This document shows, in pieces, positions 38,127 to 61,913 of a DNA stretch of 64,000 bases. The stretch lies in contig NZ_LMUE01000002.1 in NCBI RefSeq assembly GCF_009766065.1, positions 124,001 to 188,000 of the forward strand. Reading direction: 5' to 3'. The position numbers and the translations under genes are program-made. Under the pieces are notes generated by a model. The model made no database searches. It was not told the origin of the DNA and saw nothing but the letters and a program-made list of their open reading frames with translations. This DNA is from Dyella sp. S184 (GTDB lineage Bacteria > Pseudomonadota > Gammaproteobacteria > Xanthomonadales > Rhodanobacteraceae). The first letter of the stretch is position 1. Each line of letters starts with the position of its first letter.

Positions 38127-38224
38127 CTACTGACGGAGCCGAGATGCAGTTCACGACTTGTCCGGTAGACAAGCCAAGCAAGCGCTATATCCCGGCCGCC
38201 ATGACGACCGCGCCATCCATGAGC

Positions 38225-43193: not shown

Positions 43194-43198
43194 TTGAA

Positions 43199-44596
43199 TT
43201 AGTTACCCGAAACAACGTCAGTTTCCAAGGTGATTTTCGAATCCATTTCCATATCCGCCAAGCCGTTGGTGTGCCGCATATCCCCAATGACTGTCATGAT
43301 GATCGAATCAACCCGTCGATCGAACGCACCGATATCTACCCCGCTTTCATCGAATTGGGAGACGCCTACGGTGATGAAATATTGTCCCGGAAGCAGCGAA
43401 TTCCTCATATTGAACTCGCTGATAACGACGTCTCCAGCCGCATAGCCATACAGCTTGTTTTCGACGGTGAAGGTATTCGCGCTGTAGACGACCAGGCCCT
43501 CGCGCGTGCGTATCTGAATTCCAAAGATAACGCGCTCTGCCGGCCTGTTGAATACGTATTTCATCATCAAGCAGAATTTATCGCCCGAATTTACGATTGG
43601 CGAATCACCCCGCTGGCCCTTGACGAGAAAATCAAGCACCGTGGCGGTGCCATCTCCAAGTCGCACCTCACCTCGGTTGTAACCGGGGCGTGAAGCGAAT
43701 AGCTCCTGCCGCCCACCGGCAGCGAGATGCAAATGATCATCCTCCTCCGCCGCACCCTCGACCCGATGGATGCCTGCCCCACTCGGCGCCGAATCGTCGA
43801 TGATATTGATGCGCGTACCGAAAACGCGTCGCAGATATTCTGCCACTGCCGGCTTGGTCGGCCCATCGAATACCAGCCTGCCCGCGTCCAGCACAATGCC
43901 ACGGTCACAAAGCTGGAGCAGGGTATCGGAAGAGTGAGTTACAAACAGAAGCGTGCAACCCGACTCACGCAATTCATCAATCCGGCGAAAGCATTTGCGC
44001 TGAAAATAGACATCCCCAACCGACAAGGCTTCGTCGACCACCAGTATTTCAGGGTCGCTGAATGAGGCGACGGCAAATGCCAGTCGCACATACATGCCGC
44101 TTGAGTAGGTCTTGACAGGCTGATCAATGTGATCGCCTATTTCAGCAAAATCAACGATATCCTGATAACGGCTTTTCAATACGTCCTCAGGAATGCCATA
44201 GACCAATCCACTGAGGAAGATATTTTCCTTGCCCGTGAACTCCGGATTGAACCCGGCGCCCAGCTCGAGCAATGCGGCGATACGCCCAGGCGATCGCACA
44301 CTCCCCGTCGTTGGCGTCAAAATGCCGCAAATCATTTGCAACAGCGTCGATTTTCCTGACCCGTTACGGCCAATGATTCCGACAGCTTCGCCACGTTTCA
44401 CACTGAAAGTGACATCGCGCAGCGCCCAGAAATCCCTGTAGTAACGGGCAGACTTGTCGCCAATGAGGCTCCGCAGCTTCGGCAGAAACATTTGTTTCAG
44501 GCGATCCTGCGGCTGCGCATAGATTTCATAGCGCTTCGTCAGGCCCTCTACAGCAATGGCGACATCGCTCGACAATTCGTCATGCTCAGAGGACAT
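43199..44596 (-). CDS. wzt: O-antigen ABC transporter ATP-binding protein with C-terminal glycan-binding domain
   Basis: A 465-residue Wzt. The ATPase domain (about 15-250) has Walker A GRNGSGKS (76-83), signature SSGM (165-168), Walker B ILVVDE (184-189) and H-loop His221. The C-terminal 200 residues form a beta-sandwich-like domain, as in Wzt proteins that recognise the finished O-antigen. Its C-terminal part differs from that of the second Wzt, which fits two distinct glycans. The ATG at 44596 overlaps the wzm1 stop by 11 bases. Confidence 0.93.
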
Positions 44597-45410
44597 CGGC
44601 AAATCCCTTGCGTGAGCGCTCAAACCAGACGAAGGCGAACCATGCAAACAGACATGACGCCAGCGCATACGCGCCCAGAGCCAGCCAGTTTGGCATTAGC
44701 CCCCAGACGAGCACATTCCGTGACTCTTCGACGATCACCGTAAGTGGATTGAGGTAAAGCAGATCACGATATGGCATCGGAATCTGCTCCAACGGATAGA
44801 AGATGGGCGCCAGGAACATCAGCGCCACGGTAATCACGCCGATGACTTGCTTGAGATCGCGCAGAAATACTCCGAGCGAGGCCAGCAGCCAAACCGTACC
44901 TGCCACGAATGGAAGAAACACGGCGACGACAACTGGGAACAACACAACTGTCCACGGTATGCTTTTTTGTACGATCAGCGCGAATACCAGCAACACGACG
45001 GTCGAGACCAGCAGATGAAACAGTGCGGATCCAAGCGTGCTCCACGACAAGGTCTCCAGCGGGAATACGACCTTTTTCACAAAGTTCGTGTTGTCGATGA
45101 TCAATGCGGGCGCCCGATTGGCACATTCGCTGAACATCGAGTTGATATTAAGACCGGCAAACATGATCACCGCAAAGCTCACATGCTCCGCACCTTGGCC
45201 GGTCCAGTGTGATTTGAAAATCACGCCGAAAACAAATGTGTAGATGGCCAACATCAGCAACGGGTTGAAGAACGACCATAGCAAGCCGATGAACGACCCC
45301 CGATAGCGGCCAACGACATCCCGACGCGTCATTTGCTGGATCAGCGCGAAATGACGCCGCAATGCCCGATAAGGCACCAAGGGATCAGCAAGCCGATAGG
45401 CTGAAATCAT
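44586..45410 (-). CDS. wzm: O-antigen ABC transporter permease
   Basis: A 274-residue permease with about six helices of the ABC-2 type. RRDVVGRYRGSFIGLLWSFFNPLLMLAIYT is the hallmark segment (read in two parts: RRDVVGRYRG and SFIGLLWSFFNPLLML). It exports polyprenyl-linked polysaccharide with Wzt. GGAG precedes the ATG at 45410. It is the first gene of the leftward O-antigen unit, 116 bases from metB. The C-terminus ends FADVL, with the wzt start overlapping. Confidence 0.94.
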   Translation of the reverse strand: MISAYRLADPLVPYRALRRHFALIQQMTRRDVVGRYRGSFIGLLWSFFNPLLMLAIYTFVFGVIFKSHWTGQGAEHVSFAVIMFAGLNINSMFSECANRAPALIIDNTNFVKKVVFPLETLSWSTLGSALFHLLVSTVVLLVFALIVQKSIPWTVVLFPVVVAVFLPFVAGTVWLLASLGVFLRDLKQVIGVITVALMFLAPIFYPLEQIPMPYRDLLYLNPLTVIVEESRNVLVWGLMPNWLALGAYALASCLFAWFAFVWFERSRKGFADVL

Positions 45411-46701: not shown

Positions 46702-46976
46702 GGCATCCGGTGAAAGGGGGCGCGGGGGCAAAGCGCCTATCTTACTAGCCATGCATGCCTTTGCTGAACCGCGGCCAGTGCATCCATTCATTCAGGCACA
46801 CCCTTCAGGCCTGAAACTGCAGCATTTCGCACACATCGCGCCGCGCGATCTACCCCGTACATGCGCTGGCGTATTGCACATCACATCCGAAAACGCGATC
46901 TTTAGCGCTTCCCGCAGTGCGCGCGACATGCCCACGGCACTCTGTCAGCCCGGCTGTCGACCAGCGAGATATGTTC

Positions 46977-49382
46977 ATGAGCCCTACCCAGCGCAATCCC
47001 ATACCATCCACCGCAATAGAAGGTGTCGTGGACGGTTTGAGGGGCAACCAACTGCACGGCTGGGCATGGGATACCCGAGCGGAGCAGCCGCATTTGCGGA
47101 TCGAGGTTCGTGCAGATGGCGTGCTGCTTGGAAGCACTGACGCGGCAATATTCCGCGCCGACCTGGCCATGGCCGGCAAACGTAACGGCCACTGTGCCTT
47201 CGCCATCGCACTCGACCCACTGCCTGCACCGGGCACCGTCCTCACGGTTGCCGCCGCCGGCGGAGGCATGGGACGGGAACTCACGGGCAGTCCGTTCACG
47301 GTTCCCGCACCGCTGGTGCCGGGTTGCGCAGACCAGGTCACCGATGTCCTGCCCTTGCCGATTGGCACCCCGCGCCTGCATGGCTCACTGGATCAATGCG
47401 GACCCACTCGTATCCGCGGATGGGTCCGCTGGCTCGATGGGACCGGTCGGTCACCGACCCTGTCCCTGCATGAAGGTGATCGCGAGCTGCTGCGCTTCGA
47501 AGCCAATCAATGGCGTGCCGACATCGCCGAACTGCAGCAGGATGACGGTTGCTGTGGGTTCGACCTGCCGTTGCCGGAAGCACTCGGCGACGGTCTGCTG
47601 CATGTGCTGGAGCTTCGCATGGCAGATAGCGGTGTGGCAGTGCTGCAATCCCCGTTCCGTATCCGCGGGGCAGCAGCACTCACTGCACCGCGAACACGTG
47701 GTGTCTCGCCGTTGCAGCGTAAAGCGGTGGCCGACACGGTGGACCTTTCGGTAATCGTCAACTTCTACAATATGCGGCGCGAGGCGGAACGCACACTGAC
47801 CTCACTCAGTCGGGATTATCAGCACGATGCTGGTGATCTCAGTTACGAGGTGCTGTGCATCGACAACGGCTCCAATCCGCCGCTGGACCCGGGCTGGATC
47901 GCCAGCTTCGGCCCCCAGTTCCGGCTGGTGCGCCCCAGCCGTCAGCTGACCTCGCCATGCGCCGCGCTGAATGAGGCGGCGCTGCAAGCACGCGGCAAGT
48001 ATCTGGCGCTGATGATCGACGGCGCCCACCTGCTCACCCCCGGCGTGTTCCACGAAGCACGGCGCGCATGGCAGGAACATCCTGACGCGGTGGTCGCCGT
48101 ACGGCACTGGTTCATCGGTGGCGACCAGCGCTGGCTGGCCATGGCCGGCTACACCCGCGAGCAGGAGGACCGGCTATTCGAGCGGATCCGCTGGCCGGCC
48201 AACGGCTACGAGCTGTTCCGCATCGGTGCTCCGATTGGCGAAAATCCCGAACCCTGGTTCGACGGTCTCAGCGAAAGCAATTGCCTGATGCTGCCGACCG
48301 CGCTCTACGATCGCATCGGTGGCTTCGACGAGGCATTCGACCAGGCCGGTGGTGGCTTCGCCAACCTCGATCTGTGGCGACGCGCCAGTGATGCCACCAA
48401 CGGCCCGCTGGTTTCGCTGCTGGGTGAAGCAAGCTTCCACCAGTTCCATGGCGGCACCACCACCAATGTGGACGACGCCGAGAAGGATTCACGCGTGCGC
48501 GCGTATGCCAACGCCTATCGCGCGCTTCGCGGCGAAGACTTTGCCGGCGTGCACCGTTCCCGCCTGAGCTTTCGCGGCCGCATGCCATCGGAATTCGCCA
48601 CCGGCGTGCGGCAGCGCACACTGTTGCCGATGCACCTGGGTATCACCGAACAGGTTCGGTCCGGGCAGCTGGCCCTGCATTTCGACGAGGGTGCGCAAGC
48701 CCATTTGCAATCGGTATACGCTGAATGCGCCTTGCAGCGCGAGGTCAGATGGCTGGGCCAGCCGGTCGGTGTGGCGCCTGCCGACCTGGTCAGTCTGCAG
48801 GAAATCATTCAGCAGGTTCGTCCCGACGCCGTCATCGTCGTAGGTGCGGAGGCCGGGCTGGTTGCCTTCATCGACAACATGTTGAGCATGATCGACGGTG
48901 CAGCGTCGCGGATTCTGCATGTGAACCCGCCTTCGGCCATGTCGGCATGGCCAGCGCGCGTCACCGCGCTGCAGGGCTTGCCAGGCGATCCACACGTCCT
49001 CGCCACAGTGCGCCAATGGGTCGGCAGTGCCGAAGCCGTACTGGCGCTGCAAGCCACAGGCGCGACCGAGACCTTTTCGCTGTCGACGCTGCAGGATTAC
49101 GGCGCGCTCGTCTCATACCGTTCCTACCTGATCTGCCTGGGCACCCTGTTCGGGCAGCCATGGCTCGGCTATTCGAGCCACCAGTATCTGCACACCATTC
49201 GCGAATTCACCGGCACCCATTCGCCGTTCGTAATCGACCGCAGCTGGAATCGACAATTGATCAGTACCTGCCCGTCCGGCTTCCTGCGCAAGGTCGGTGG
49301 CCTTTGCACCGCCGCCAACTACGATGCTTCACTGGACACGATCGCGCCGGACCAGCCGTCGCTCATGGAGAACCAGCAATGA
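46977..49382 (+). CDS. Large glycosyltransferase-like fusion: two N-terminal sandwich repeats, GT2, CmcI-like domain
   Basis: An 801-residue protein. Residues about 14-110 and 132-230 are related beta-rich repeats (LHGWAWD...IEVRADGVLLG and IRGWVRWLDG...LSLHEGDREL, each followed by an FRADLA- or WRADIA-like segment). A GT2 fold spans about 256-500, but the metal motif reads IDGA rather than DxD. Residues about 620-795 resemble cephalosporin-hydroxylase/rhamnosyl-O-methyltransferase (SLQEIIQQVRPDAVIVVG, CLGTLFG, STCPSGFLRKV), with the usual E-x-G-T and E-D-T changed. Both catalytic halves may thus be altered. Start at ATG 46977, divergent from metB; it overlaps the next gene by four bases. Confidence 0.75.
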   Translation: MSPTQRNPIPSTAIEGVVDGLRGNQLHGWAWDTRAEQPHLRIEVRADGVLLGSTDAAIFRADLAMAGKRNGHCAFAIALDPLPAPGTVLTVAAAGGGMGRELTGSPFTVPAPLVPGCADQVTDVLPLPIGTPRLHGSLDQCGPTRIRGWVRWLDGTGRSPTLSLHEGDRELLRFEANQWRADIAELQQDDGCCGFDLPLPEALGDGLLHVLELRMADSGVAVLQSPFRIRGAAALTAPRTRGVSPLQRKAVADTVDLSVIVNFYNMRREAERTLTSLSRDYQHDAGDLSYEVLCIDNGSNPPLDPGWIASFGPQFRLVRPSRQLTSPCAALNEAALQARGKYLALMIDGAHLLTPGVFHEARRAWQEHPDAVVAVRHWFIGGDQRWLAMAGYTREQEDRLFERIRWPANGYELFRIGAPIGENPEPWFDGLSESNCLMLPTALYDRIGGFDEAFDQAGGGFANLDLWRRASDATNGPLVSLLGEASFHQFHGGTTTNVDDAEKDSRVRAYANAYRALRGEDFAGVHRSRLSFRGRMPSEFATGVRQRTLLPMHLGITEQVRSGQLALHFDEGAQAHLQSVYAECALQREVRWLGQPVGVAPADLVSLQEIIQQVRPDAVIVVGAEAGLVAFIDNMLSMIDGAASRILHVNPPSAMSAWPARVTALQGLPGDPHVLATVRQWVGSAEAVLALQATGATETFSLSTLQDYGALVSYRSYLICLGTLFGQPWLGYSSHQYLHTIREFTGTHSPFVIDRSWNRQLISTCPSGFLRKVGGLCTAANYDASLDTIAPDQPSLMENQQ

Positions 49383-50269
49383 ACCGCTTCTGGCAACGCT
49401 ACATCCATCCGCTGATTGAAACCGCGCAACCGCGAAGAATCATGGAAATCGGCGCGGATCGTGGCTGGAACACCAGCAACATCCTCGCCTACTGCCGTGC
49501 CACCGGCGCACATGCCGACATCATCGATCCGGCACCGCGGGCCAGCCTGCATGAGGTACTGGCTCAGTTCGGGCCCGCCGAATACCGCTACCTCCCGCTG
49601 AAGAGTGTGGCGGCGATCCCGCAACTGGAAACACCGGATGTCGCGCTGATCGATGGCGATCACAACTGGGCCACTGTCTACAGCGAACTGAATCAACTGC
49701 ATGCGCGTGCCGAGCAGACCGGCCACGCGCCACCGATCGTGATCTCGCATGATGTCGCATGGCCTTATGCCAGGCGCGACATGTACTACAACCCGGACGA
49801 TCTGGAAGCCTCGCAGAAACATCCTTACGCATATCGCGGCATGCTGCCTGGCGTGCCCGAACTGGTCGAACATGGCATGAATGGGGTGCTGGCCAATGCG
49901 CTGCAGGAAGGTGGCCCACGCAATGGCGTGCTCACCGCGATCGAGGATTACATCGCCAGCGCAGACACCGAATTCACCTTCCGCAAGCTGCCGTTCTTCA
50001 ACGGACTCGGCATCCTCGTGCCAGCAGCGCGGATGACCCCTGCACTGCAGGCCTTGATCGACAGCTTCTTCAGCGCCAGCAGCATGCTCGAGGCTTGTCT
50101 GGCATTGGAGGCCGATGGCATGCACCTGCGCGCCATCCTCACCCAGACCGAGACTTGCCTCAGCCGGCGTACCGATGCGCTGCAGCGCGCCCGTGAGGTG
50201 ATCGAGGCGCAACGGCAACGACTGGAAGAGCTGGAACTGTTGAACCGGAACCACGCAGCGACAGCATGA
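49379..50269 (+). CDS. Class I methyltransferase with coiled-coil C-terminus
   Basis: A 296-residue protein. The SAM motif is IMEIGADRGWNTSNIL (21-36), then LIDGDHNWATVYSEL and ISHDVAWPYARRDMYY, which fit methyltransferase family 24 and its metal-binding DGDH site. The last 40 residues are a charged coiled coil (LQRAREVIEAQRQRLEELE). The target is probably a glycan hydroxyl. Coupled to the preceding fusion gene by ATGA and converging on the PhyH gene with 21 bases between. Confidence 0.82.
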   Translation: MNRFWQRYIHPLIETAQPRRIMEIGADRGWNTSNILAYCRATGAHADIIDPAPRASLHEVLAQFGPAEYRYLPLKSVAAIPQLETPDVALIDGDHNWATVYSELNQLHARAEQTGHAPPIVISHDVAWPYARRDMYYNPDDLEASQKHPYAYRGMLPGVPELVEHGMNGVLANALQEGGPRNGVLTAIEDYIASADTEFTFRKLPFFNGLGILVPAARMTPALQALIDSFFSASSMLEACLALEADGMHLRAILTQTETCLSRRTDALQRAREVIEAQRQRLEELELLNRNHAATA

Positions 50270-50290: not shown

Positions 50291-51325
50291 TCAGAGCCAC
50301 AACGGAACCTGCTGGGCCGGATACGCCGAAGGTGCAAAGAACCATGATTCGATGGCGTAACGGTCCTTTGCGATCGCCGCCGGTATACCAGTACGGTGCA
50401 GAAAGAAGTGGTCGAACAACAATGCATCGCCCGGCGCGAATATCGGGCTGACCGTTGCGATGCCTTCGGCAGCCTCTTCGACCATGCCCGGCCCGACTGA
50501 CCAGTCGAAATATGCGCCATGGCTACCGGTCGGCAGCACCCGTGACAGTCGCCGTGGCAGGATCTCCAGTCCCGAGGCGTCCTCACCGCAATGCGAAAGG
50601 CTGAGCCAGACGTTCACGCTGCGGATGTCGCTGCCCATGAATGCCCCGTCCTGATGCCAATCAGCCGTGCGGATCGTGCTGGGCACGCGGCGCAGGGTCG
50701 ATTTGCCCACCGACAGCATCGGCCGCTCGCCGAAGTAACCGGCGATAGCCGCGGCCGCTCCGCTCGAAGCGAACAGTTCGGTAAGTTCGAACAACATGCG
50801 CGGCGAATCGACCGTCCACACGCCATTCGCCTCTTCTACCCAGATGCGGGCCGGCTCGATCTCGCAGTCATCGGGTAATGCCAGCCGTGAATACCACGGC
50901 GAGTCGGATGGACCCATGCCATTGCGATGCCATGCTGTGCAGGTCTCCAGCGCCTGCTGCACACCGGTTGCCAGTTGCAATGCCTTCGGCTCCTGCAACA
51001 AACCACGCACCAGCAACGCACCATGGCAGCGAATGCCGGCTGTGAGTGTGATGGCATTGAGCTGACTGGCTTCAATCTCCGGCACGCCATGAATATCGGC
51101 AAAAGGATCGGCCACCGGCAACGGCCACGGCCCCTTCACGGTGGATTGCGGTGGCCGAATCAGATACGCCTTGTAGCGGCACTCTGCCAGCAGCCTTTCG
51201 TAACGCGCATCCGGTTGCTGCCGATGGCAGGCACTCAACCATGCGACTGCCTCGACGAACTGCCGCCGCCGCATCAGTTCCTGCGCGCGCGTGAATCCGT
51301 CCTCCAGCCGGTCATGCTCGATCAT
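50291..51325 (-). CDS. PhyH-family Fe(II)/2-oxoglutarate dioxygenase
   Basis: A 344-residue protein with the 2-His-1-Asp facial triad of the phytanoyl-CoA dioxygenase family: His224 and Asp226 in WHQDGAF and distal His310 (FFLHRTG), with Arg322 as the likely oxoglutarate anchor. The ATG at 51325 overlaps the GSCFA gene by 14 bases. As the last gene of the second ABC-polysaccharide operon it may hydroxylate or otherwise oxidise a sugar or a lipid/amino-acid substituent. Substrate unknown. No membrane helix is seen. Confidence 0.85.
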   Translation of the reverse strand: MIEHDRLEDGFTRAQELMRRRQFVEAVAWLSACHRQQPDARYERLLAECRYKAYLIRPPQSTVKGPWPLPVADPFADIHGVPEIEASQLNAITLTAGIRCHGALLVRGLLQEPKALQLATGVQQALETCTAWHRNGMGPSDSPWYSRLALPDDCEIEPARIWVEEANGVWTVDSPRMLFELTELFASSGAAAAIAGYFGERPMLSVGKSTLRRVPSTIRTADWHQDGAFMGSDIRSVNVWLSLSHCGEDASGLEILPRRLSRVLPTGSHGAYFDWSVGPGMVEEAAEGIATVSPIFAPGDALLFDHFFLHRTGIPAAIAKDRYAIESWFFAPSAYPAQQVPLWL

Positions 51326-52397
51326 CGCTACTCTCCCGCCATCCCGGATCACCTTGCGGCGGGTCCAGTCGTTGTTCATCGCACAGCGTATCGACGATGG
51401 CCTTCCCCCGCTGCACGAAATCTTCGTACGATGCCACGACCGGTGTCGACGAAGATACCTCCAGCACATGCCGGGAAAACAGCGACATCACATGGCGTAC
51501 GCCATGCTCGAGTACCGTGCGGCGATCCTCGGCGAAGTACCCCGGACCTGCCGCACTGACGATTTCGTAGGCCGGAAAGTAATACACGTCCGGCAACCGG
51601 CACAGTTGCTCCGCAGCCACCCGCAACACCGCCTTGGAATACGTGGTGGCGGCCAGCACGTGCCGTGGCTCGGCCGTGGCCGCAAGCGGCACCGGCGACA
51701 CGGTCAGGATCATTCGCATATGCGGATTCACCTGGCGCACCTCGTCAATGAAGGCACGCAGATCGGCCACCACTTCGTCGACCGAAAAATTGAGCAGGAC
51801 GTGCCGGCCAGCGTCGTAATCGCCAGCGGCCACACCGGGACACAACGGATAGACGGCACCGTCCTCACGTGAGGCCCAGCACTCGGTGAGCCCAAGTGTG
51901 AACACGAACACGTCCATCTCGCCAAAGGCCCGACGCACCGCGGCGAAATGCTGGCGACGATCCTCCTGATATTCGCGTGCCGAGCTGAACCCGCCGGGCT
52001 GGATGCCCGGACGGAAAGGATCGTACCAGCCGTCCGCCCCTTCCCAGATGTCGTCCACCGGCACGAATATCCCCGTCGCACGCCGCCATAACTGAAGCAG
52101 TTGGCGCGTGGTGTAGATGTTGCCGTAACGCGCCGAATAGATGCCGTAATTGAAGGCTTCCGCCAACGCTGGAGTGAGCAACGGATGGGCTGGTTCGGTT
52201 TCGAAACAGGCATGCCCCTGCTCGCGCAGATGGCGCGCTACGTGCTGTGCGAAGCAGCTACCCGCAGTAACTACCCGACTGCCGACCCCAATCCTGAATG
52301 GTGGCGAAGAAACGGGATCGATAGCCTCGTTGGTGCGCCCAGCCATGGCCCGGCTCCACCGCTGCGCATCGGGAATATCCAGGTAGGGATGGCTCAT
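51312..52397 (-). CDS. GSCFA domain protein
   Basis: A 361-residue protein with the defining GSCFA motif at residues 46-50 (TAGSCFAQH). The fold is probably SGNH/GDSL-hydrolase-like, with FTLGLTECWASREDGAVYPLCPG in the middle and no signal peptide or membrane helix. Biochemical function of GSCFA proteins is, to my knowledge, not established. It overlaps the SGNH-like gene by four bases and the PhyH gene by 14, so three enzymes of unknown substrate are co-translated here. Confidence 0.88.
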   Translation of the reverse strand: MSHPYLDIPDAQRWSRAMAGRTNEAIDPVSSPPFRIGVGSRVVTAGSCFAQHVARHLREQGHACFETEPAHPLLTPALAEAFNYGIYSARYGNIYTTRQLLQLWRRATGIFVPVDDIWEGADGWYDPFRPGIQPGGFSSAREYQEDRRQHFAAVRRAFGEMDVFVFTLGLTECWASREDGAVYPLCPGVAAGDYDAGRHVLLNFSVDEVVADLRAFIDEVRQVNPHMRMILTVSPVPLAATAEPRHVLAATTYSKAVLRVAAEQLCRLPDVYYFPAYEIVSAAGPGYFAEDRRTVLEHGVRHVMSLFSRHVLEVSSSTPVVASYEDFVQRGKAIVDTLCDEQRLDPPQGDPGWRESSDDRA

Positions 52398-53128
52398 GCC
52401 AGCCGCCTCATCTGCTCCAGCACCAGCTCGCCATAGGCCGCATTGGCATGAGCACCGTCGCCATAATACGACTCGCGCATGAAGCCGCTTTCGTCAACCG
52501 ACTGCGGCGGGCAAGGCACCAACGTTGCCCCGGCCCCGGCGCACCAGTCGCTCACGATCTGCGAATGCAGGCGCCACAGTTTGTAGCGGAAATATGCCGG
52601 TGAAATCTCGTGACGCATGCCTGGATACATGTCCCATGGAATATCCGCCTGCATGCGCTGGGCATCGGCAAATGGCGGCGGTGATTCGAGATGAAACAGC
52701 CGACCGTTGCAAAGCCGCTGAACCTGCGACATCAAGGCAAGATAATCCATCATCAGCGACTCCAGCACGCGCCGTACTGCGAGTGCCGGCAGCACCTCGG
52801 CAGCGGGGTCCAGCGGCAATGCCGGTTGTGCAGGCAACACAAAATCAAAACGCCGCGGATGCACCAGCATGCCAAGCACACCATGCGCCGCGCCGCCGAT
52901 CATTGAAAATACCGGCCCCTCATGTTGCCTCAACTGTTGCTCAAGCGCCGACGACAACCGCGACACGCCATCGTCTTGCTCGATCGCGCCGGGCATCCCC
53001 CAGAAATTCAATGCCTGCAACGGCGTACCCGTGATTTCAGCGGCTCGCGCCACGCAGGTTACGTGGCTGTGCCCAATGCACCACAGGGGATCGGGCATGG
53101 CTGCGCGCCGGTTCGTCAGCCAGGACAT
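52394..53128 (-). CDS. SGNH-hydrolase-like protein
   Basis: A 244-residue protein. IGHSHVTC near the N-terminus (Ser21, with GHSH in place of the usual GDS) and DGAH near the C-terminus (224-227, block V Asp/His) form the frame of an SGNH esterase or acyltransferase. A YYGDGAHANAAYGELVLE tail is typical. It may be a distant relative of the GSCFA protein next to it. The ATG at 53128 overlaps the glycosyltransferase stop by one base (TGATG). No signal peptide, so it likely acts on a cytoplasmic intermediate. Confidence 0.7.
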   Translation of the reverse strand: MSWLTNRRAAMPDPLWCIGHSHVTCVARAAEITGTPLQALNFWGMPGAIEQDDGVSRLSSALEQQLRQHEGPVFSMIGGAAHGVLGMLVHPRRFDFVLPAQPALPLDPAAEVLPALAVRRVLESLMMDYLALMSQVQRLCNGRLFHLESPPPFADAQRMQADIPWDMYPGMRHEISPAYFRYKLWRLHSQIVSDWCAGAGATLVPCPPQSVDESGFMRESYYGDGAHANAAYGELVLEQMRRLA

Positions 53129-55506
53129 CAGCCTGCCAAGGTCCGCATTTGTCGCAAACCATCCGGCCTCTCGACATCCGGCATGACCGACCTTGCCGTC
53201 ATTTGCCGCCACTCCCGTGGCGGGAAGGCCAGCGAGAATGGTTCGCCGGAGAGCGTGAGATTGGGGTTGTAAGCGGGGTCGTACTCCAACTGGCTGCCCC
53301 ACCGGCTCTTCATGAATTCCACTTCGCGGATGAAGCGCGTCCGCTTCTCTACCGTGTTCTCGTGTCCCCGCGAGGCGGATTCGTGGTGGTAGAGCTCCGC
53401 AAACGGCGTCCACACGTTGGTATAGCCGTGTTGACGCAGCCGCAGGCAGAAGTCGACATCATTGAAAGCCACCCTCAATGAAGCATCCAGCCCGCCGACC
53501 TGCTGGTAGACCTCGCGCCGCACCATCAGGCAGGCTGCCGTGACCGCACTCATCGCCTGTGTCAACCGTGCACGCGCCATCTGCCCGCCATGCCCCCGCG
53601 GCATGCCGCAATAGGGATGCGCCGCCACCCCGTGCACCCCAGTCATCACTCCTGCATGCTGGATAGTGTCGTCTGGGTAGTAAAGCATCGCCCCCACCGC
53701 ACCCACGTGCGGACGCAACGCATGGCTGGCCAGCTCCTCCAACCAATCCGGCGTGATGACCTCGATATCGTTGTTGAGCAGGCAAACCAGTTCACCGCGA
53801 CAGGCTCGCACGGCTTCGTTGTTGATGACCGAATAATTGAACGGTTGGTCATGCCGCTGCACACGCACCCTGGCATGACCGGAAAAACCCGCCAGATAGG
53901 CCAGCGATTCCGGCTCCGCCGACTGGTTGTCCATCACCACGATCTCGTAGTTCGCGTACGTCGTCCGATCGAGAATCGTGCTTATGCATTGCCGCAGCAG
54001 ATCAATCCGGTCACGGGTAGGAATAATGATACTGATGAGTGGCAACTGATCGGATAACGGGCGACGTATCCGGAATGCACCCATCAACCCATCGATCTCC
54101 ATCACTTCAGCGACCTCGCCTCGCCGCGCAAGATGTTCGCGCAAGGCGCGTCGGCCGGCGTCGTGTGCATAGCTCTTCTGCTCCACGCCTTGCGCAGTCG
54201 ATCCGGCGATCGCCCGCCAGTGGTAAAGCACCATCGGTATGTGACCAATCTGCTCCGGCGTCAACCGTTCGCTGCAACGCAATGCCAGATCCCAGTCCTG
54301 GCTACCTTCAAGCCCTTGGCGAAAACCACCCACCGCATTCATCAGATCGCGTGAATAGATGCCCAGATGGCTGACGCAGTTCTGCCCGCACAGCAGATCC
54401 GGATTCCAGTCAGGCTTGAAATAAGGATCGTAGCGCTGGCCATCAGCGTCGATCTTGTCTTCGTCCGAATAGACGAATTGCCACTGCGGGTTTCGCTGCA
54501 ATGCCTCAATGACCGTGGCCAGCGCCTCAGGATGCAGCTCGTCATCGTGATCCAGCAATGCCACATGATCACCATGCGCCAGGGCCAGCGCACTATTGGA
54601 TGCGGCCGAGATATGACCGTTGTGCTCGCGCCAGAAAATCCTTATGCGAGGATCACGACCTGCGTACTCCTCCAGCACGGCGCGCACTTGCGGCTCGGTG
54701 GAGGCATCATCAGCCACGCACAATTCCCAATGCGGGTAGGTCTGCGCCAGCACGCTGTCCAGACAACGTCGCAGCCAGATCTCCGGCGTGTTGTAGGTAG
54801 GCAACAGAATCGATACCAGCCCATCACCACGGATTTGCGCTGGCGATGAAGGCTGATCGTAGAGTCTGAGCCAGCGATCATAGGTCGGCGCCTTGATACC
54901 TCGCCGAACATACAGCCCATGCAGCCATGACGCAAAAGCGTGCCTTCCACCAGGTTCTTGCAGCTTGTGCCATGCATCTAGCTTCAGAGCATGGGTATCA
55001 ACGCCAGCCGCATTCGCATCTCTCGCCACCTCACGCCACATGCGCCAACTAGCGCCAATTCGGCCCAGTCGCCTGATCGTGAGGTGCTGCGCGTGGAACG
55101 TACAAGCCATGCAAGTCGGATCAAACCGCAACCTCTGCACATCATGCAGGAGCAGCACTACCCCGGAATGACGTCTAATGCCGGGCCGAATGAAATTCAG
55201 ATGCCGCGACCACGACTCATGCATGCCGTGTCCGTAGTCGAAGTACAGCACTGGCTCCAGTCGATCGCCATCGAAATCCTGCAGCTCTATGGATAGTTGG
55301 TACCAACCCGCTTTCAGCGGAAAGCCGCTGCCCACGCAGTCAAACTTGGGGTCGTTTCCAAGGGAAGACCAGAGCCCCGGTTCACTGACCACCGGCTCCA
55401 GCTGATCGAGCGGTTGCAGCGTCAGTTTGCTGCCACCGAAACGCAAGTGCAGATACTGCGCGCCTTTGCGCAGATGGTGCCACAGTGATCGATAAGGAAA
55501 ATGCAT
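53128..55506 (-). CDS. Tandem GT2 glycosyltransferase
   Basis: A 792-residue protein. An N-terminal beta-rich domain (about 1-200, with FDYGHGMHESWSRHLNF) is followed by two GT2 domains: about 229-440 with SILLPTYNTPEIWLRRCLDS, a DHDD metal motif (LLDHDDE) and SDEDK, then about 500-740 with SIIIPTRDRIDLLRQCI and NNDIEV. The second ends in FNDVDFCLRLRQHGY, the acceptor-side motif. It could add two sugars of a repeat unit. It is one of seven genes that start with wzm2. Confidence 0.88.
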   Translation of the reverse strand: MHFPYRSLWHHLRKGAQYLHLRFGGSKLTLQPLDQLEPVVSEPGLWSSLGNDPKFDCVGSGFPLKAGWYQLSIELQDFDGDRLEPVLYFDYGHGMHESWSRHLNFIRPGIRRHSGVVLLLHDVQRLRFDPTCMACTFHAQHLTIRRLGRIGASWRMWREVARDANAAGVDTHALKLDAWHKLQEPGGRHAFASWLHGLYVRRGIKAPTYDRWLRLYDQPSSPAQIRGDGLVSILLPTYNTPEIWLRRCLDSVLAQTYPHWELCVADDASTEPQVRAVLEEYAGRDPRIRIFWREHNGHISAASNSALALAHGDHVALLDHDDELHPEALATVIEALQRNPQWQFVYSDEDKIDADGQRYDPYFKPDWNPDLLCGQNCVSHLGIYSRDLMNAVGGFRQGLEGSQDWDLALRCSERLTPEQIGHIPMVLYHWRAIAGSTAQGVEQKSYAHDAGRRALREHLARRGEVAEVMEIDGLMGAFRIRRPLSDQLPLISIIIPTRDRIDLLRQCISTILDRTTYANYEIVVMDNQSAEPESLAYLAGFSGHARVRVQRHDQPFNYSVINNEAVRACRGELVCLLNNDIEVITPDWLEELASHALRPHVGAVGAMLYYPDDTIQHAGVMTGVHGVAAHPYCGMPRGHGGQMARARLTQAMSAVTAACLMVRREVYQQVGGLDASLRVAFNDVDFCLRLRQHGYTNVWTPFAELYHHESASRGHENTVEKRTRFIREVEFMKSRWGSQLEYDPAYNPNLTLSGEPFSLAFPPREWRQMTARSVMPDVERPDGLRQMRTLAG

Positions 55507-55525: not shown

Positions 55526-56995
55526 CTAGCCTCGCTTGATGATTCGCCGGACCACCGACCACAAGCTGCGCTTTGCCAGCTGATCGATACCCTGCTCCAA
55601 TCGTTGCAGGCTCGCTTGCAGATTTTGCATCTCCCCTCGCTGCTGTTGGAATGCATGTGCCAAGCCCTGAACATCCGCTCGCTGTTGTTGGAATGCATGT
55701 GCCAAGCCCTGAACATCCGCTCGCTGTTGTTGGAATGCGCGTGCCAAGCCCTGCACATCCGCTCGCTCACCTGCGAGCCGGCGCATGTCGGTTAGTGATG
55801 TCCCCTGCTGTTGCAGCAAATGGTGCAACGAGGAATCTTGAATCACCAGCTCGTACTCAACCCGGACGGTTACCTCGAGCCAGCTATCACGATGTCCTTC
55901 GACAAGGCTGCTGCCGATCTCGAATTCGACGTTGGGATCGCCATCGAAGCTGATCAAGCGCACCGATTGCGTGCCGAAGGCCGGCAACAACTCACCGTTG
56001 ATATGACCCAATCGGTCAGGCAACCGATCCAGATTCCGGACTACTCCACCCGCTTGCTGCCGCACTACCACTCCACTCAATCCGTATACGCCCGGCAAGT
56101 CGGCCGGATCAAGTCGCAAGTAGTCCGGGCGAATGCCGGCCGGCAGCCGGAATTGCAGATCCAGCACGCCGTTTGTCGCATCGACTGGCTGTGAAATCAT
56201 GCGGCTTTCGTCGAAAGCCTCGTCACGATGGCGATAGAAGAGATGACAGACCACACGCTGCGGCTCGACCATGGCTGCCGCCATCGGTTGCTCATCGGCG
56301 TCGACCAGAGTGCCTGCCAAAGCTTCGAAGAAACCGCATACGCTATCGGGTGAAGCCTCGGCCTGTCGCATGAAGGCAACGAATGCTGCAGGCACTTCCG
56401 AACCCACAGCTACTACACCCAGGCCATGGCTATGCCGAAAACTGAAGCATGCATATTGTGCCGCCAGTTCATCGAGGAATTGCCCGACGCCAAACCCTCG
56501 TTCACGCACCGCGGTGTCGTGCAAGAGCACCACGGCGCGGCGGCTGAGCTTGGGCAGCCAGGTTTCGAAATCGTGGCGTACCGCTTCGTAGGTATGCAAT
56601 CCATCGATGTGCAGGAGGTCAATGCTGCCGTCTTCAAATTGGCCTGCTGCGTCATCGAAACGCGCACGCAGCAGTTGCGAGAAATTCTCGTATAGCGGGT
56701 CATGCCTGGCACGAAGTGACTGGTACACCTCGTCCCCGTAACGCAACGCATGCATATCACCCTGCCAGGTGTCCACAGCGGTACAGCGACAGGACAGATC
56801 CAGGGCATGCACCGCCTGGCAGAACGCCAGATAGGAGTTGCCCGAATGGGTGCCCAGCTCGACCAGGGTACGCGGCCGCAAGAGATCCACGGCGAGATAG
56901 GCGAACGGAATGTGTCCGACCCAACCGTAAGGCGGCACGATGCGTGGTTTCATCAGAACCAGCGGATGCTCTTCGAGGCGAAAATCAGGGCTCAT
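55526..56995 (-). CDS. Class I methyltransferase with 14-residue repeat coiled-coil tail
   Basis: A 489-residue protein. LVELGTHSGNSYLAF (44-58), IDLLHIDGLHTYEAV and VLLHDTAVRERGFGV fit family 24 methyltransferases. A middle beta-rich part (about 250-390) follows. Residues 411-452 are three copies of RADVQGLA(R/H)AFQQQ, then a degenerate fourth and a basic end (RRIIKRG). The repeats correspond to 42-base DNA units at 55640-55765. The coiled coil probably makes it oligomerise or bind the membrane. The ATG at 56995 overlaps the wzt2 stop by 11 bases. Confidence 0.85.
   Translation of the reverse strand: MSPDFRLEEHPLVLMKPRIVPPYGWVGHIPFAYLAVDLLRPRTLVELGTHSGNSYLAFCQAVHALDLSCRCTAVDTWQGDMHALRYGDEVYQSLRARHDPLYENFSQLLRARFDDAAGQFEDGSIDLLHIDGLHTYEAVRHDFETWLPKLSRRAVVLLHDTAVRERGFGVGQFLDELAAQYACFSFRHSHGLGVVAVGSEVPAAFVAFMRQAEASPDSVCGFFEALAGTLVDADEQPMAAAMVEPQRVVCHLFYRHRDEAFDESRMISQPVDATNGVLDLQFRLPAGIRPDYLRLDPADLPGVYGLSGVVVRQQAGGVVRNLDRLPDRLGHINGELLPAFGTQSVRLISFDGDPNVEFEIGSSLVEGHRDSWLEVTVRVEYELVIQDSSLHHLLQQQGTSLTDMRRLAGERADVQGLARAFQQQRADVQGLAHAFQQQRADVQGLAHAFQQQRGEMQNLQASLQRLEQGIDQLAKRSLWSVVRRIIKRG
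55640..55765 (-). repeat. Three tandem 42-base repeats inside the methyltransferase gene
   Basis: Three nearly identical 42-base units, each encoding RADVQGLA(R/H)AFQQQ. The unit is a multiple of three, so a change in copy number would change coiled-coil length without breaking the frame. Units two and three are almost the same at DNA level, which indicates recent duplication. Confidence 0.9.
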
Positions 56996-58355
56996 GGGTT
57001 ATTCGTTCCAATCGTACGTCGAGCATCGGTATGCCGATCAGCCCGGACGACAGCGTGCCGCCGGTAGCCATGAAGCGCAACGCCTCGTGCAGCCAGTGCT
57101 GGATCACATATTGCTCCTGGGTTCCCTCGGCCAAGCCCACGGTGATGAAGTATTCCCCCGGCACCAGCCGTGGCATCACGAAACGGAAGCTTGCATTGAA
57201 GGCCTGGCCGCCACTCACCGCGAAATCGCCTTCATGGCTGAGCACGGTGTTGTCACCGAACAGCAGCTGACCCAGTCGATCCTTTACATAGAAACCCACG
57301 ATCACGTTGTCGATCGCATTCTCTGCCAGCAGCCTGACCTCCAGCGTCACGGTTTCGCCAGCCACCACCATGGCCAGTACCTCATCAGCCTCGTTGCGGA
57401 ATGCGACATGGGCAATATGAGCCTTGCATTCCCCGAAACCCTCGGCATCCGGTTTGAAGGGGAAGATTTTCAGGTCATTGCGCAGGGTCGATCGATCCAT
57501 CAGCTCCTGTCGGAAATCGACCTGCTCCACCGGCGCAACGTATGCGTGGCCAGGTGGTCTGGAACTGCGCCCACCCGCTCCGCCCTGGCGCTCGACGATG
57601 GAGGCCTCGAGGTAGGCCTCCATGACCTTGCGGGCATCCCCGATGCGTTGTACGCGCCCATGCTCCAGCCAGATTGCGCGATCGCACAGGCTGGTCACCG
57701 CGCCGCCATCATGGCTGACGAACAACATCGTGCCGCGCTTGCGGAACTCACGCAGGTAGCGCATGCACTTCTGCATGAAGAAGGCATCCCCCACGGCCAA
57801 CGCCTCATCGATGATCAGGATGTCCGCATCCACATGCGTCACCACGGCGAACGCCAATCGCATCACCATGCCGGTGGAATAGTTGCGCACTGGTTGGTCG
57901 ACGAATTCGCCGATCTCGGCATAGGCCAGGATGTCATCGATCCGCGCATCGACTTCACTGCGACTCAACCCGAGGATAGATGCATTCAGATAAACATTCT
58001 GACGTCCAGTGAAGTCGGGATTGAAGCCGCTGCCCAGCTCCAGCAACGCCGCTACGCGACCGTGGATGGCGGCACTGCCCTCCGTTGGCTTGAGCGTGCT
58101 GGCGATCAGCTGCAGCAGGGTCGATTTCCCCGCGCCATTGCGCCCTATGATGCCGAGCGTCTCACCGCGCCGAACCTCGAAGTCGACCCCACGCAAAGCC
58201 CAGAACTCGCGATAGAACCGCTGCCTGCCGCCGATCAGGCTCTGCAGCATCCGGTGCACCGGCTTGTCGTAGAGCTGGTAGCACTTCCCGAGCGCCCGAA
58301 CCTCGATCACCACCTCATCGGATGGCTGTTGCGACAGGGCGGGCTCAGAGGACAT
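56985..58355 (-). CDS. wzt: Second O-antigen ABC transporter ATP-binding protein
   Basis: A 456-residue Wzt paralogue. Walker A is GRNGAGKS (71-78), then GRVAALLELGSGFNPDFTGRQN, signature YSTGM and Walker B ILIIDE. The C-terminal domain (about 265-456) is a carbohydrate-binding type, with VMPRLVPGEYFITVGLAEG as its best conserved part, also seen in the first Wzt. Most of the rest differs, which suggests a different polysaccharide. The ATG at 58355 overlaps wzm2 by 11 bases, exactly as in the first pair; ATG 58367 is an alternative. Confidence 0.93.
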   Translation of the reverse strand: MSSEPALSQQPSDEVVIEVRALGKCYQLYDKPVHRMLQSLIGGRQRFYREFWALRGVDFEVRRGETLGIIGRNGAGKSTLLQLIASTLKPTEGSAAIHGRVAALLELGSGFNPDFTGRQNVYLNASILGLSRSEVDARIDDILAYAEIGEFVDQPVRNYSTGMVMRLAFAVVTHVDADILIIDEALAVGDAFFMQKCMRYLREFRKRGTMLFVSHDGGAVTSLCDRAIWLEHGRVQRIGDARKVMEAYLEASIVERQGGAGGRSSRPPGHAYVAPVEQVDFRQELMDRSTLRNDLKIFPFKPDAEGFGECKAHIAHVAFRNEADEVLAMVVAGETVTLEVRLLAENAIDNVIVGFYVKDRLGQLLFGDNTVLSHEGDFAVSGGQAFNASFRFVMPRLVPGEYFITVGLAEGTQEQYVIQHWLHEALRFMATGGTLSSGLIGIPMLDVRLERITHEP

Positions 58356-59151
58356 CAGCGAACCCATCCCGCGTACGCTGAAACCAGACGTATCCGAACA
58401 GCAGCACAGCCACGGAAACCAGGGTATAGATCCCTAGTGCAGGCCAGTCGGGTGATTTTCCGAACAGTACCAGCTGTCGCGTCTGCTCGATCATCAAGGT
58501 CAGCGGGTTGAGGGTGATCCAGTCACGATAGGGCTCACGCAGGTTCGACGCGGGATAGAACACCGGGCTAAGGAACATCAGCATCGACGAAATCACGCCG
58601 GCAACCTGCGTCACGTCGCGGACAAATACGCCCAGCGATGCCATCAGCCAGCTCACCCCGCACAGCAGCAGCACATAAGGTGCATACAGAAGCGGCAGAT
58701 ACAGCAGCGTCGCATGCAGTGTGTGCTGCGAGATCAAGACGAAGATCAGCAGCACCAGCACGCTGAGGAGCGCATTGAACAGCGTCGAGGTCACCATGAC
58801 GCAAGGCAGGATCGCCAGTGGAAACACCACCCGCTTCACCAGGTTGCTCTGCGAGACGATAACCCCCGGCGCACGCGTGATGCATTCGGCCAGCAACGAA
58901 TGGACGATCATGCCGCAGAAGATCATCAACGAAAAATCGGCCCCCGACTCCATGTTCGGCCAGCGCATGCCGAGAAATACGCGAAAAGCCAGCGTATAGA
59001 CAGCCAACATCAACAGCGGATTGAAGAACGACCACAACAACCCCAGGAAGGATCCGCTGTAACGCCCTGCAATATCGCGTTTGGTGAGCTCCCAGAATAC
59101 GTCTCGTCTAGCCCAGACACGTCTTGACAGGGACATTTTTGCTATTTCCAT
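58345..59151 (-). CDS. wzm: Second O-antigen ABC transporter permease
   Basis: A 268-residue permease of the ABC-2 type with about six helices. KRDIAGRYSGSFLGLLWSFF is the Wzm signature, and the protein ends in GFADVL like Wzm1. The ATG at 59151 has a GGAGTGAGG site; ATG 59136 is possible. It heads the second polysaccharide operon and is divergent from rmlB. Confidence 0.93.
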   Translation of the reverse strand: MEIAKMSLSRRVWARRDVFWELTKRDIAGRYSGSFLGLLWSFFNPLLMLAVYTLAFRVFLGMRWPNMESGADFSLMIFCGMIVHSLLAECITRAPGVIVSQSNLVKRVVFPLAILPCVMVTSTLFNALLSVLVLLIFVLISQHTLHATLLYLPLLYAPYVLLLCGVSWLMASLGVFVRDVTQVAGVISSMLMFLSPVFYPASNLREPYRDWITLNPLTLMIEQTRQLVLFGKSPDWPALGIYTLVSVAVLLFGYVWFQRTRDGFADVL

Positions 59152-59246
59152 CCTCACTCCGTGCTTTGCCTGGATACCACCCGACGCTGAAGCGCCGCCA
59201 ACCACCTGCCACCTGCCATCAACGTGCGCCCCAATCCTCGTCGCCA

Positions 59247-59324
59247 ATCAATGGCAAACTATGCATTGATCCAACATGCGCATGCACTATCAGCCCCTTG
59301 GCACACCATATCAGCCACTGATAG
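59247..59324. promoter_or_regulatory. Inverted repeats in the wzm2-rmlB divergent region
   Basis: ATCAATG (59247-59253) and CATTGAT (59264-59270) are a perfect pair 10 bases apart. TATCAG occurs at 59288-59293 and 59309-59314, 21 bases apart, and the second pairs with CTGATA (59318-59323) across CCA. Such spacing on one DNA face is typical of an operator. The regulator is unknown. Confidence 0.4.
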
Positions 59325-59371
59325 ACCATTCGCAGCCGAATGTTCGCCCATATGACACCAAAGAAGGCTCG

Positions 59372-60442
59372 ATGAACAGTCCATCCGATCACATCCCATT
59401 GCTGCTCGTCACTGGCGGAGCAGGTTTTATCGGCGCCAACTTCGTGCTACAGGCCATTGCTGACGGCCTGCGGGTCGTCAATCTGGACAAGCTCACTTAC
59501 GCTGGCAACCCGGATACGCTGTCCTCACTGCAAGGCCACGACCGGCATGTGTTCGTGCAAGGCGATATCGGTGACCGGGCGCTGGTGGCGAAGCTGCTGG
59601 CCGAACATCGCCCCGATGCCATTGTCAATTTTGCTGCCGAGTCGCACGTCGACCGCTCGATCGACGGCCCCGCCGAATTCGTGCAGACCAACGTGGTCGG
59701 CACGCTGGGCCTGCTCGAATGCGCCCGCGACTACTGGCGCGGCCTCGAGGGCAGCGCGCGCGAGGCGTTCCGCTTCCTGCACGTATCGACCGACGAGGTC
59801 TACGGCTCGCTCGGTGCCGAGGGCAAGTTCACCGAGCAGACACCGTACGCGCCGAACTCGCCGTATTCCGCCTCGAAGGCGGCCTCCGATCACTTGGTCC
59901 GTGCGTTCCAGCACACCTACGGCCTGCCCACGCTGACCACCAACTGCTCGAACAACTACGGTCCCTTCCAGTTCCCGGAAAAACTCATCCCGCTGATCAT
60001 CCAGAAAGCGCTGGCCGGCGAACCGCTGCCGGTTTACGGCGACGGCCTGAACATCCGCGACTGGCTGTTCGTGGGCGACCACTGCAGCGCGATCCGCCGC
60101 GTGCTGGAAGCGGGCCGCGTCGGCGAGACCTACAACGTCGGCGGCAATGCCGAACGCGAGAACATCGCTGTGGTGAAGAGCATCTGCGCGTTGCTCGATC
60201 AGCGCCGGCCGCTGGACGATGGTCGCGTACGCGAATCGCTGATCACCTACGTCAAGGACCGCCCTGGGCACGATCGCCGCTATGCGATCGACTCCAGCAA
60301 GCTGCAGGACGAACTGGGCTGGCGGCCATCGCAAACCTTCGAAACCGGCATCGCGCAGACGGTGGACTGGTATCTTGCCAACCAGCCGTGGAGCCAGCGC
60401 GTGCTCGACGGCAGCTATCGCATGGAGCGCCTCGGCTCGTGA
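59372..60442 (+). CDS. rmlB: dTDP-glucose 4,6-dehydratase
   Basis: A 356-residue extended SDR that converts dTDP-glucose to dTDP-4-keto-6-deoxyglucose, the second step of dTDP-L-rhamnose synthesis. NAD loop TGGAGFIG (14-21), VSTDEVYGSL and the catalytic YSASK are intact. GAAGG lies upstream of the ATG at 59372. First gene of rmlBACD-xanB. Confidence 0.97.
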   Translation: MNSPSDHIPLLLVTGGAGFIGANFVLQAIADGLRVVNLDKLTYAGNPDTLSSLQGHDRHVFVQGDIGDRALVAKLLAEHRPDAIVNFAAESHVDRSIDGPAEFVQTNVVGTLGLLECARDYWRGLEGSAREAFRFLHVSTDEVYGSLGAEGKFTEQTPYAPNSPYSASKAASDHLVRAFQHTYGLPTLTTNCSNNYGPFQFPEKLIPLIIQKALAGEPLPVYGDGLNIRDWLFVGDHCSAIRRVLEAGRVGETYNVGGNAERENIAVVKSICALLDQRRPLDDGRVRESLITYVKDRPGHDRRYAIDSSKLQDELGWRPSQTFETGIAQTVDWYLANQPWSQRVLDGSYRMERLGS

Positions 60443-60468
60443 AAGCTGAGATCATCTAGGATTCGATC

Positions 60469-61359
60469 ATGAGCACGACGCAGAAAGGCATCATCCTCGC
60501 CGGCGGTTCCGGCACCCGGCTTTATCCGATCACCCGCGCGGTCAGCAAGCAGCTGCTGCCGGTGTACGACAAGCCGATGATCTATTACCCGCTGGCCACG
60601 CTGATGCTGGCCGGCATCCGCCAGGTGTTGATGATCAACACGCCGCATGAGCAGGAGATGTTCCAGCGCCTGCTCGGCGATGGCTCGCAGTGGGGCATCG
60701 ACATCCAGTACGCCGTGCAGCCCTCACCCGATGGCCTCGCGCAGGCGTTCACCATCGGTCGTGATTTCGTGGATGGCAAGCCTAGCTGTCTGGTGCTGGG
60801 CGACAACATCTTCTACGGCGTCGGCCTGACCGAGCGACTCAAGCGCGCGGCCTCGCGCGAACATGGCGCCACCGTGTTCGGTTACTGGGTCAAAGATCCC
60901 GAGCGCTATGGCGTGGCCGAATTCGACGCTGCCGGCCGGGTGATCGGACTGGAGGAAAAGCCGGCCCACCCCAAATCCCATTACGCGGTGACTGGCCTGT
61001 ACTTCTACGACGGTCGCGTTTGCGATTACGCCGCGGCACTGAAGCCATCATCGCGCGGCGAACTGGAAATCACCGACCTCAACCGCTTCTACCTCGACGA
61101 CGACTCGCTGCACCTGGAGCAGCTCGGGCGTGGTTTTGCGTGGCTCGACACCGGCACCCACGATTCGCTGATGGAGGCGGGCAACTACATCGAGACCATC
61201 GAGAACCGCCAAGGCCTCAAAGTTTGCTGCCCGGAGGAGATTGCCTACCTCAATGACTGGATCAACGCCGAACAACTACTGGCACTGGCCGCTCCACTGG
61301 CCAAGACCGGCTACGGCCAATACCTGCAGCAGCTGACTCGTCAAGGTCATGTTCGATGA
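60469..61359 (+). CDS. rmlA: Glucose-1-phosphate thymidylyltransferase
   Basis: A 296-residue enzyme for the first rhamnose step, joining dTTP and glucose 1-phosphate. The N-terminal [20 protein letters not shown] signature and GDNIFYG are intact, and length fits RmlA. AGGA precedes the ATG by eight bases. It overlaps rmlC by four bases. Confidence 0.97.
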
Positions 61360-61913
61360 AAGTGATTGAAACCGCGTTACCCGGCGCACTGATTCTCGAA
61401 CCACAAGTGTTCGGCGATGCCCGTGGCTTCTTCTACGAAAGCTACAACAAGGGCAAGTGGCAGGAAGCCGGCATCATGGCCGACTTCATCCAGACCAATG
61501 TTTCGCGCTCGGCCAAAGGCGTGCTGCGCGGGCTGCATTACCAGTGGCCAAATCCGCAAGGCAAGCTGGTCAGTGTGCTCGAAGGCGAGGTGTACGACGT
61601 AGCGGTGGATATCCGCCGCGGCTCGCCCACGTTCGGACAGTCGTTCGGCGTAATGCTGACCGCCGAAAATCATCGGCACTTCTGGGTCCCGGAAGGCTTT
61701 GCGCATGGTTTTTGCGTGCTGTCCGAGTTCGCCACCTTCACCTATCAGTGCACCGCGCTTTACGACGCCCAGGCCGACGCCGGCATCCGCTGGAACGATG
61801 CCGATCTCGGCATCGACTGGCCCTTGAGTACACCACTGCTGTCCGACAAGGACGGCAAGACGCCGCTGCTGAAAGACGTCGCGCCGGAACGGCTGCCGGT
61901 TTTCGCGTCGTGA
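61356..61913 (+). CDS. rmlC: dTDP-4-dehydrorhamnose 3,5-epimerase
   Basis: A 185-residue cupin epimerase for the third rhamnose step. [26 protein letters not shown] (with the active-site histidine) and [13 protein letters not shown] are typical. The start overlaps the rmlA stop (ATGA) and its stop overlaps the rmlD start. Confidence 0.97.

Follow-up and report, generated by a model that had tools for sequence, protein, structure and literature searches.

A conserved SGNH-GSCFA protein pair in a Wzm-Wzt polysaccharide operon: a putative two-subunit O-acyltransferase accompanied by a PhyH-like dioxygenase

The SGNH-like and GSCFA proteins encoded in a polysaccharide operon of the window (the 64-kb stretch of DNA analyzed here) are a conserved two-gene unit found across Proteobacteria and make up the core of the system, to which the neighboring PhyH-like dioxygenase is an add-on. 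By analogy with the pip pathway of Pseudomonas entomophila, the pair may function as a two-subunit O-acyltransferase, with PhyH hydroxylating the acceptor and the modified residue being carried on a rhamnose-containing O-polysaccharide before its export by Wzm2-Wzt2. We favor this reading with somewhat better than even confidence.

The operon and its surroundings

The window contains a complete lipopolysaccharide-type locus, and its minus strand carries a seven-gene operon, wzm2-wzt2-methyltransferase-GT2-SGNH-GSCFA-PhyH, running from 59247 (wzm2) to 50291 (PhyH). The first gene encodes the ABC-2 permease Wzm2 (58345..59247; PF01061). It is followed by Wzt2 (56985..58367), an ABC ATPase (PF00005) with a Wzt_C carbohydrate-binding domain (PF14524, 105.9 bits), by a methyltransferase assigned to Methyltransf_24 by domain match and extended by a C-terminal repeat region (55526..56995), and by a tandem GT2 glycosyltransferase with two PF00535 stretches (53128..55506). 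The last three genes encode the SGNH-like protein (52394..53128, 244 aa), the GSCFA protein (51312..52397, 361 aa) and the PhyH-like Fe(II)/2-oxoglutarate dioxygenase (50291..51325, 344 aa). Overlaps of 23 nt (wzm2/wzt2), 11 nt (wzt2/methyltransferase), 1 nt (GT2/SGNH, TGATG), 4 nt (SGNH/GSCFA, ATGA) and 14 nt (GSCFA/PhyH) join the genes, the 19-nt gap between the methyltransferase and GT2 being the sole non-overlapping junction among the six. Spacings of this kind (-23, -11, +19, -1, -4 and -14 nt) imply that SGNH, GSCFA and PhyH are translationally coupled. An earlier note on this DNA had described three overlapping, co-translated genes placed after a tandem GT2 gene in an operon led by wzm2-wzt2, and the shared strand, the -4 and -14 nt spacings, the gene order and the two GT2 domains all bear this out. 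A sigma-70 promoter scan of the operon returned nothing above chance.

Two plus-strand genes adjoin the operon at its distal end: one for a class I methyltransferase (Methyltransf_24, hereafter MT24; 49379..50269), convergent with PhyH, and one for a GT2 domain fused to an RMNT_CmcI (rhamnosyl O-methyltransferase/CmcI) domain (46968..49382), whose start codon is uncertain, the ORF opening at 46917. Divergent from wzm2, also on the plus strand, lie the dTDP-rhamnose synthesis genes rmlB-rmlA-rmlC (59276..61913). Since the genes of interest lie between GT2 and the export system, with the rhamnosyl O-methyltransferase-like and dTDP-rhamnose genes adjacent, most likely the acceptor is one of the sugars in the polymer that Wzm2-Wzt2 exports. 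The Wzt_C domain of Wzt2 makes a terminal cap plausible.

In the C-terminal region of the operon methyltransferase gene, 55632-55767 consists of 3.2 copies of a 42-bp repeat (94% match) that encodes repeated RADVQGLAHAFQQQ units. The total length of this protein varies among relatives, and the repeat recalls the coiled-coil length ruler of WbdD. Elsewhere in the window, at 36362-45410, HddA, GmhA and HddC-like genes of the GDP-heptose type accompany another Wzm-Wzt pair and a gene for a large DUF4915-GT2-GT4 protein, which suggests that a second ABC-exported glycan may be made at the same locus.

The SGNH-GSCFA pair and its catalytic residues

A scan of GTDB genomes gave the 80 nearest GSCFA loci, a set biased towards near relatives, and in 76 GSCFA is either adjacent to SGNH or joined with it in a fusion. 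The exceptions are L046 and L080, where GSCFA comes close to a contig edge, L075, and L097, where WcbI is present. The two genes of same-strand pairs lie close together (70/74 within 30 nt, 51 overlapping by 1-20 nt), the distance matrices of the two proteins agree (Mantel r 0.69, 0/2000 permutations), and SGNH-GSCFA fusions occur in L083, L095 and L103. By the earlier note, a lack of recurring linkage in other genomes would have refuted the proposal; the linkage of SGNH with GSCFA is in fact near-universal in the clade, fusions included. Many pairs outside Rhodanobacteraceae adjoin housekeeping genes (glutamine synthetase, rimP-nusA), not glycan genes. Individual loci depart from the simple pair: an extra gene separates SGNH and GSCFA in L040 and L082, that of L082 weakly resembling a methyltransferase, and in L158 and L160 GSCFA is split into two frames beside SGNH-like genes, one with GSRFA for GSCFA, as in decaying pairs. 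On pSymB of Sinorhizobium meliloti Rm41 (L166), a GSCFA gene is followed by a GNSH-type SGNH partner; the replicon is well studied and would lend itself to laboratory work on the pair.

The SGNH-like protein matched no Pfam or NCBIfam model, and a narrow SGNH profile (A2) run over 185 genomes of the class matched the window's own gene only. The protein carries G19-H20-S21-H22 and D224-G-A-H227, keeping Ser21 and the D-x-x-H motif intact; among 86 aligned relatives, the block I serine is found in 83, Asp224 in 82 and His227 in all (97, 95 and 100%). The earlier note had pointed to GHSH in place of GDS. The substitution is there, but as His is the commonest residue of the family at the site of the GDS aspartate (47/86), GHSH is the normal state and no defect. 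The block III Asn of the SGNH clan (GxND) is absent from the window protein (GGA at 78-80) and present as N in 55/86 relatives.

The GSCFA protein matches PF08885 over the full profile (1-237) with 171.6 bits against a cut-off of 25, as the earlier family assignment would have it, and has the GSCFA motif at 46-50. Cys48 is invariant (100%) in an alignment of 95 sequences. The SGNH block V His is replaced (D291-R-R-T), and a His occurs there in only 4 of the 95. Profile-profile comparison of the SGNH and GSCFA families aligned no block I, and sequence leaves the block I nucleophile between Ser47 and Cys48. His52 was considered as an essential replacement catalytic base and rejected: it is variable (H 83, N 11 of 95; R, K, Y and E in the genome census described below), and its PipG equivalent, H51, was not among the residues marked as important (PMC12828459). 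GSCFA was an SGNH family without known function in a 2022 review (PMC9487903). That such proteins had no settled biochemistry, as the earlier note put it, was true until December 2025, when genetic work showed that an O-acetylation requires PipG (PMC12828459).

An AlphaFold model of the L083 fusion (pLDDT 81, pTM 0.57, no reliable interface) supports SGNH folds for both halves, like those of SGNH esterases and acetyltransferases: residues 1-268 (SGNH half) match 8ik1 with Z 12.7, and residues 299-593 (GSCFA half) match Ape1 (8gkd) with Z 12.0. For both window proteins the evidence for the fold is this model of a relative. Given the likeness of the two halves to the SGNH esterases EstL5 and Ape1, the pair might act as a de-acylase or editing esterase rather than a transferase. 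We consider this improbable, since an acetyl group is gained only with PipF-PipG, the sole characterized homologous pair (PMC12828459), and since in this clade the partner of GSCFA can instead be the CoA-binding WcbI (PMC4104973).

The loss of the block V His goes together with the presence of a partner. GSCFA was present in 33 of 398 evenly sampled Pseudomonadota genomes, and 44 GSCFA genes were typed. Of the 32 genes without the His, 25 (two of them broken) lie directly upstream or downstream of an SGNH-like gene, and WcbI adjoins six of the remaining seven; among the 12 that keep it (nine D-x-x-H, three with a shifted H), none has either neighbor. Fisher's test gives 6e-10 for genes that are not phylogenetically independent: all partnered GSCFA proteins fall on one side of one branch, so that a single evolutionary event is seen repeatedly rather than in independent trials. 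Where WcbI stands beside GSCFA without an SGNH neighbor, it is divergent in the census loci L126, L128, L133, L134, L146 and L151, and it lies upstream on the same strand in L015, L097 and L165; two of the proteins were identified as WcbI by Pfam (PF18588). The reverse link is partial, about 6/22 WcbI genes adjoining GSCFA. No WcbI-like ORF was found in the window (phmmer with two WcbI proteins) or in the genome (PF18588).

WcbI, a CoA-binding protein involved in capsule O-acetylation, reportedly needs a further partner (PMC4104973). It is unrelated to SGNH in sequence and missing from the window, yet shares the role in polysaccharide acetylation and replaces SGNH as the GSCFA neighbor in one sub-clade. 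GSCFA is a candidate for the further partner that WcbI needs. More broadly, we tentatively suggest that GSCFA proteins without the block V His may be the obligate half of a widespread two-subunit acyltransferase, completed by an SGNH/PipF-like protein or by WcbI, with GSCFA being the partner that WcbI lacks, at least where the two are adjacent; the window would contain a glycan version in which a dioxygenase, fused or co-translated, first makes the hydroxyl for the pair to acylate.

The dioxygenase and the recurring gene set

The window PhyH protein scores 18.2 bits against PF05721, below the cut-off of 22, and a 46%-identical homologue from L030 clears it with 30.4 bits. The facial triad (H224-x-D226, H310) and the 2-oxoglutarate Arg (R322) are invariant in ten homologues, in keeping with the intact triad described in the earlier note. 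The best PDB profile match was a weak one (E 0.084) to EvdO2, an oligosaccharide-tailoring oxygenase. GSCFA-PhyH fusions occur in three genomes: L019 and L021, each with a single open frame of 696 aa, and L032, a deltaproteobacterial MAG. An AlphaFold prediction for the L019 fusion was poor (pLDDT 61, 14 sequences) and supports no claim. PhyH was rejected as a general partner of GSCFA, being rare in 385 genomes of the alphaproteobacterial class (one distant match, outside any such cassette), and a search of plasmids found none.

Six other Rhodanobacteraceae genomes (L016, L019-L023) retain the whole cassette, in which Wzm2-Wzt2-MT-GT2-SGNH-GSCFA-PhyH converges on MT24 and GT2-CmcI. Five of its genes (SGNH, GSCFA, PhyH, MT24 and GT2-CmcI) recur together, with order and orientation changed, in a Hyphomicrobiales MAG of the Alphaproteobacteria (L029), where rmlBA lies directly downstream of GSCFA, and in a Caulobacter MAG (L030), where PhyH stands directly beside the pair; the set is partly present on the short contigs of L032 and L033. 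The GSCFA proteins of L029, L030 and the Rhodanobacteraceae cluster in the tree (support 93), a grouping that suggests movement of the five-gene set by transfer. The trio of SGNH, GSCFA and PhyH is not the natural unit: PhyH is added to an SGNH-GSCFA core, and the recurring set takes in the plus-strand genes at 46968-50269. A comparison of gene neighborhoods, which the earlier note had proposed, gives broad linkage for SGNH with GSCFA, but GSCFA is linked to PhyH and Wzm/Wzt only in Rhodanobacteraceae and a few MAGs.

One relative, L115, keeps PhyH and the rest of the cassette but has neither SGNH nor GSCFA, which makes PhyH independent of the pair. Taken with the housekeeping neighbors of pairs elsewhere, this absence could mean that the trio is a passenger and contributes nothing to the exported polysaccharide. 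Such an explanation is very improbable in our view: the cassette has intact active sites and overlapping genes in the window and in its six Rhodanobacteraceae counterparts (L016, L019-L023), and the same GT2-CmcI and MT24 partners recur in another class. A more serious, though still rather unlikely, alternative is that two independent modifications take place, the pair acylating a native sugar hydroxyl and PhyH oxidizing another substrate of the cassette, for example a methylated sugar produced by the CmcI and MT24 proteins. PhyH is missing from the surroundings of most pairs and may therefore act in a different step, and both L115 and the faint resemblance to EvdO2 fit such a division of labor. 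The GSCFA-PhyH fusions and the position of PhyH beside the pair in L030, on the other hand, suggest consecutive steps, as does the pip precedent (PMC12828459).

Proposed function and comparison with known systems

In the acyltransferase reading that we favor, the SGNH and GSCFA proteins would be subunits of a cytoplasmic O-acyltransferase of the PipF-PipG type, most likely transferring acetyl. SGNH would supply the Ser-Asp-His triad, and GSCFA, which has an invariant Cys and no SGNH histidine of its own, would be the obligate second half. PhyH would hydroxylate the acceptor, as PipE does, making or exposing a hydroxyl for the pair to acylate, and the GT2-CmcI and MT24 proteins would attach and methylate sugars belonging to this structure. 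Before Wzm2-Wzt2 export, the rhamnose-containing O-polysaccharide would carry a modified residue, probably as a cap at its non-reducing end. Within this scheme, we infer that the reaction is acyl transfer and not hydrolysis, that the group is acetyl and not some other acyl, that PhyH acts before the pair, and that the acceptor is a glycan, modified at the position given. The acyl or hydroxylated substituent that the earlier note had proposed to be installed before export fits the pip precedent, the conserved residues and the Wzm/Wzt operon; it fits less well with the narrow linkage of PhyH to Wzm/Wzt, with the pairless L115, and with the location of two genes of the set outside the stretch originally singled out.

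Methyl-capped, ABC-exported O-antigens, as in systems with WbdD or Geobacillus WsaE, combine terminal methylation with Wzm/Wzt transporters that have Wzt_C and with fused glycosyltransferases and methyltransferases. The present locus resembles them in its Wzt_C-bearing transporter and GT-methyltransferase fusion, and adds a dioxygenase and an SGNH-GSCFA pair, which these systems are not known to have. The SGNH-type O-acetyltransferases PatB and SGNH_AT3 share the SGNH fold, a Ser-Asp-His triad and a role in glycan O-acetylation, but are extracytoplasmic and use a membrane acyl donor protein, whereas the window pair has no membrane partner and includes a second SGNH-fold subunit with a Cys. The PhyH gene XAC3597 in the LPS cluster of Xanthomonas citri (PMC3130047) was considered as a possible functional analogue of the window gene.

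The closest parallel lies in the pip pathway of P. entomophila, reported in December 2025, where the dioxygenase PipE hydroxylates the proline ring of a peptide and PipD, PipF and the GSCFA protein PipG are all needed for the final O-acetylation (PMC12828459). PipF Ser18 and His211 and PipG Cys47 are required in vivo, pipG is complemented only by pipFG, and in P. viridiflava, which lacks pipDFG, the pathway ends at the hydroxylated compound (PMC12828459), a situation paralleled by L115. Similar to pip, the window has adjacent SGNH-like and GSCFA genes with a neighboring 2-oxoglutarate dioxygenase gene. PipF Ser18/His211 correspond to SGNH Ser21/His227 and PipG Cys47 to GSCFA Cys48, and the spacing is equal (C47/H51 and C48/H52; D208/H211 and D224/H227). 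The systems differ in that pip has a peptide acceptor and an NRPS cluster, and in that PipE is of the taurine dioxygenase type, not PhyH. Searched with phmmer using one Streptomyces candidate inferred by position, the window and fetched loci showed no homologue of PipD.

A Streptomyces plasmid (L168, NZ_CP108601.1) shares both subunits, and its NRPS-GSCFA-SGNH-like-TauD-hypothetical locus resembles detoxin/rimosamide clusters. The paper on miramides lists three consecutive genes, for GSCFA, a putative protein and a taurine dioxygenase (PMC9503745). By gene order in two papers (PMC12828459, PMC9503745), the GSCFA-adjacent protein of L168 would be the PipF equivalent. Comparison by hhalign (probability 94%, E 1.2e-7) makes it a homologue of the SGNH protein in the window, its GDSH and GDTIH aligning with GHSH and GDGAH of the latter, and the L168 GSCFA likewise lacks the SGNH block V histidine. 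PipDFG was called exclusive to rimosamide/detoxin-like clusters by its authors (PMC12828459). The SGNH-GSCFA unit is also present at many other loci across Proteobacteria, and the comparison yields a residue-level prediction (Ser21, His227 and Cys48). PipF-PipG is the best analogue of the window pair. The sole functional case of a GSCFA protein, PipG, is tied to a peptide antibiotic-modulator cluster, and here the same two-protein unit is found in surface-glycan operons.
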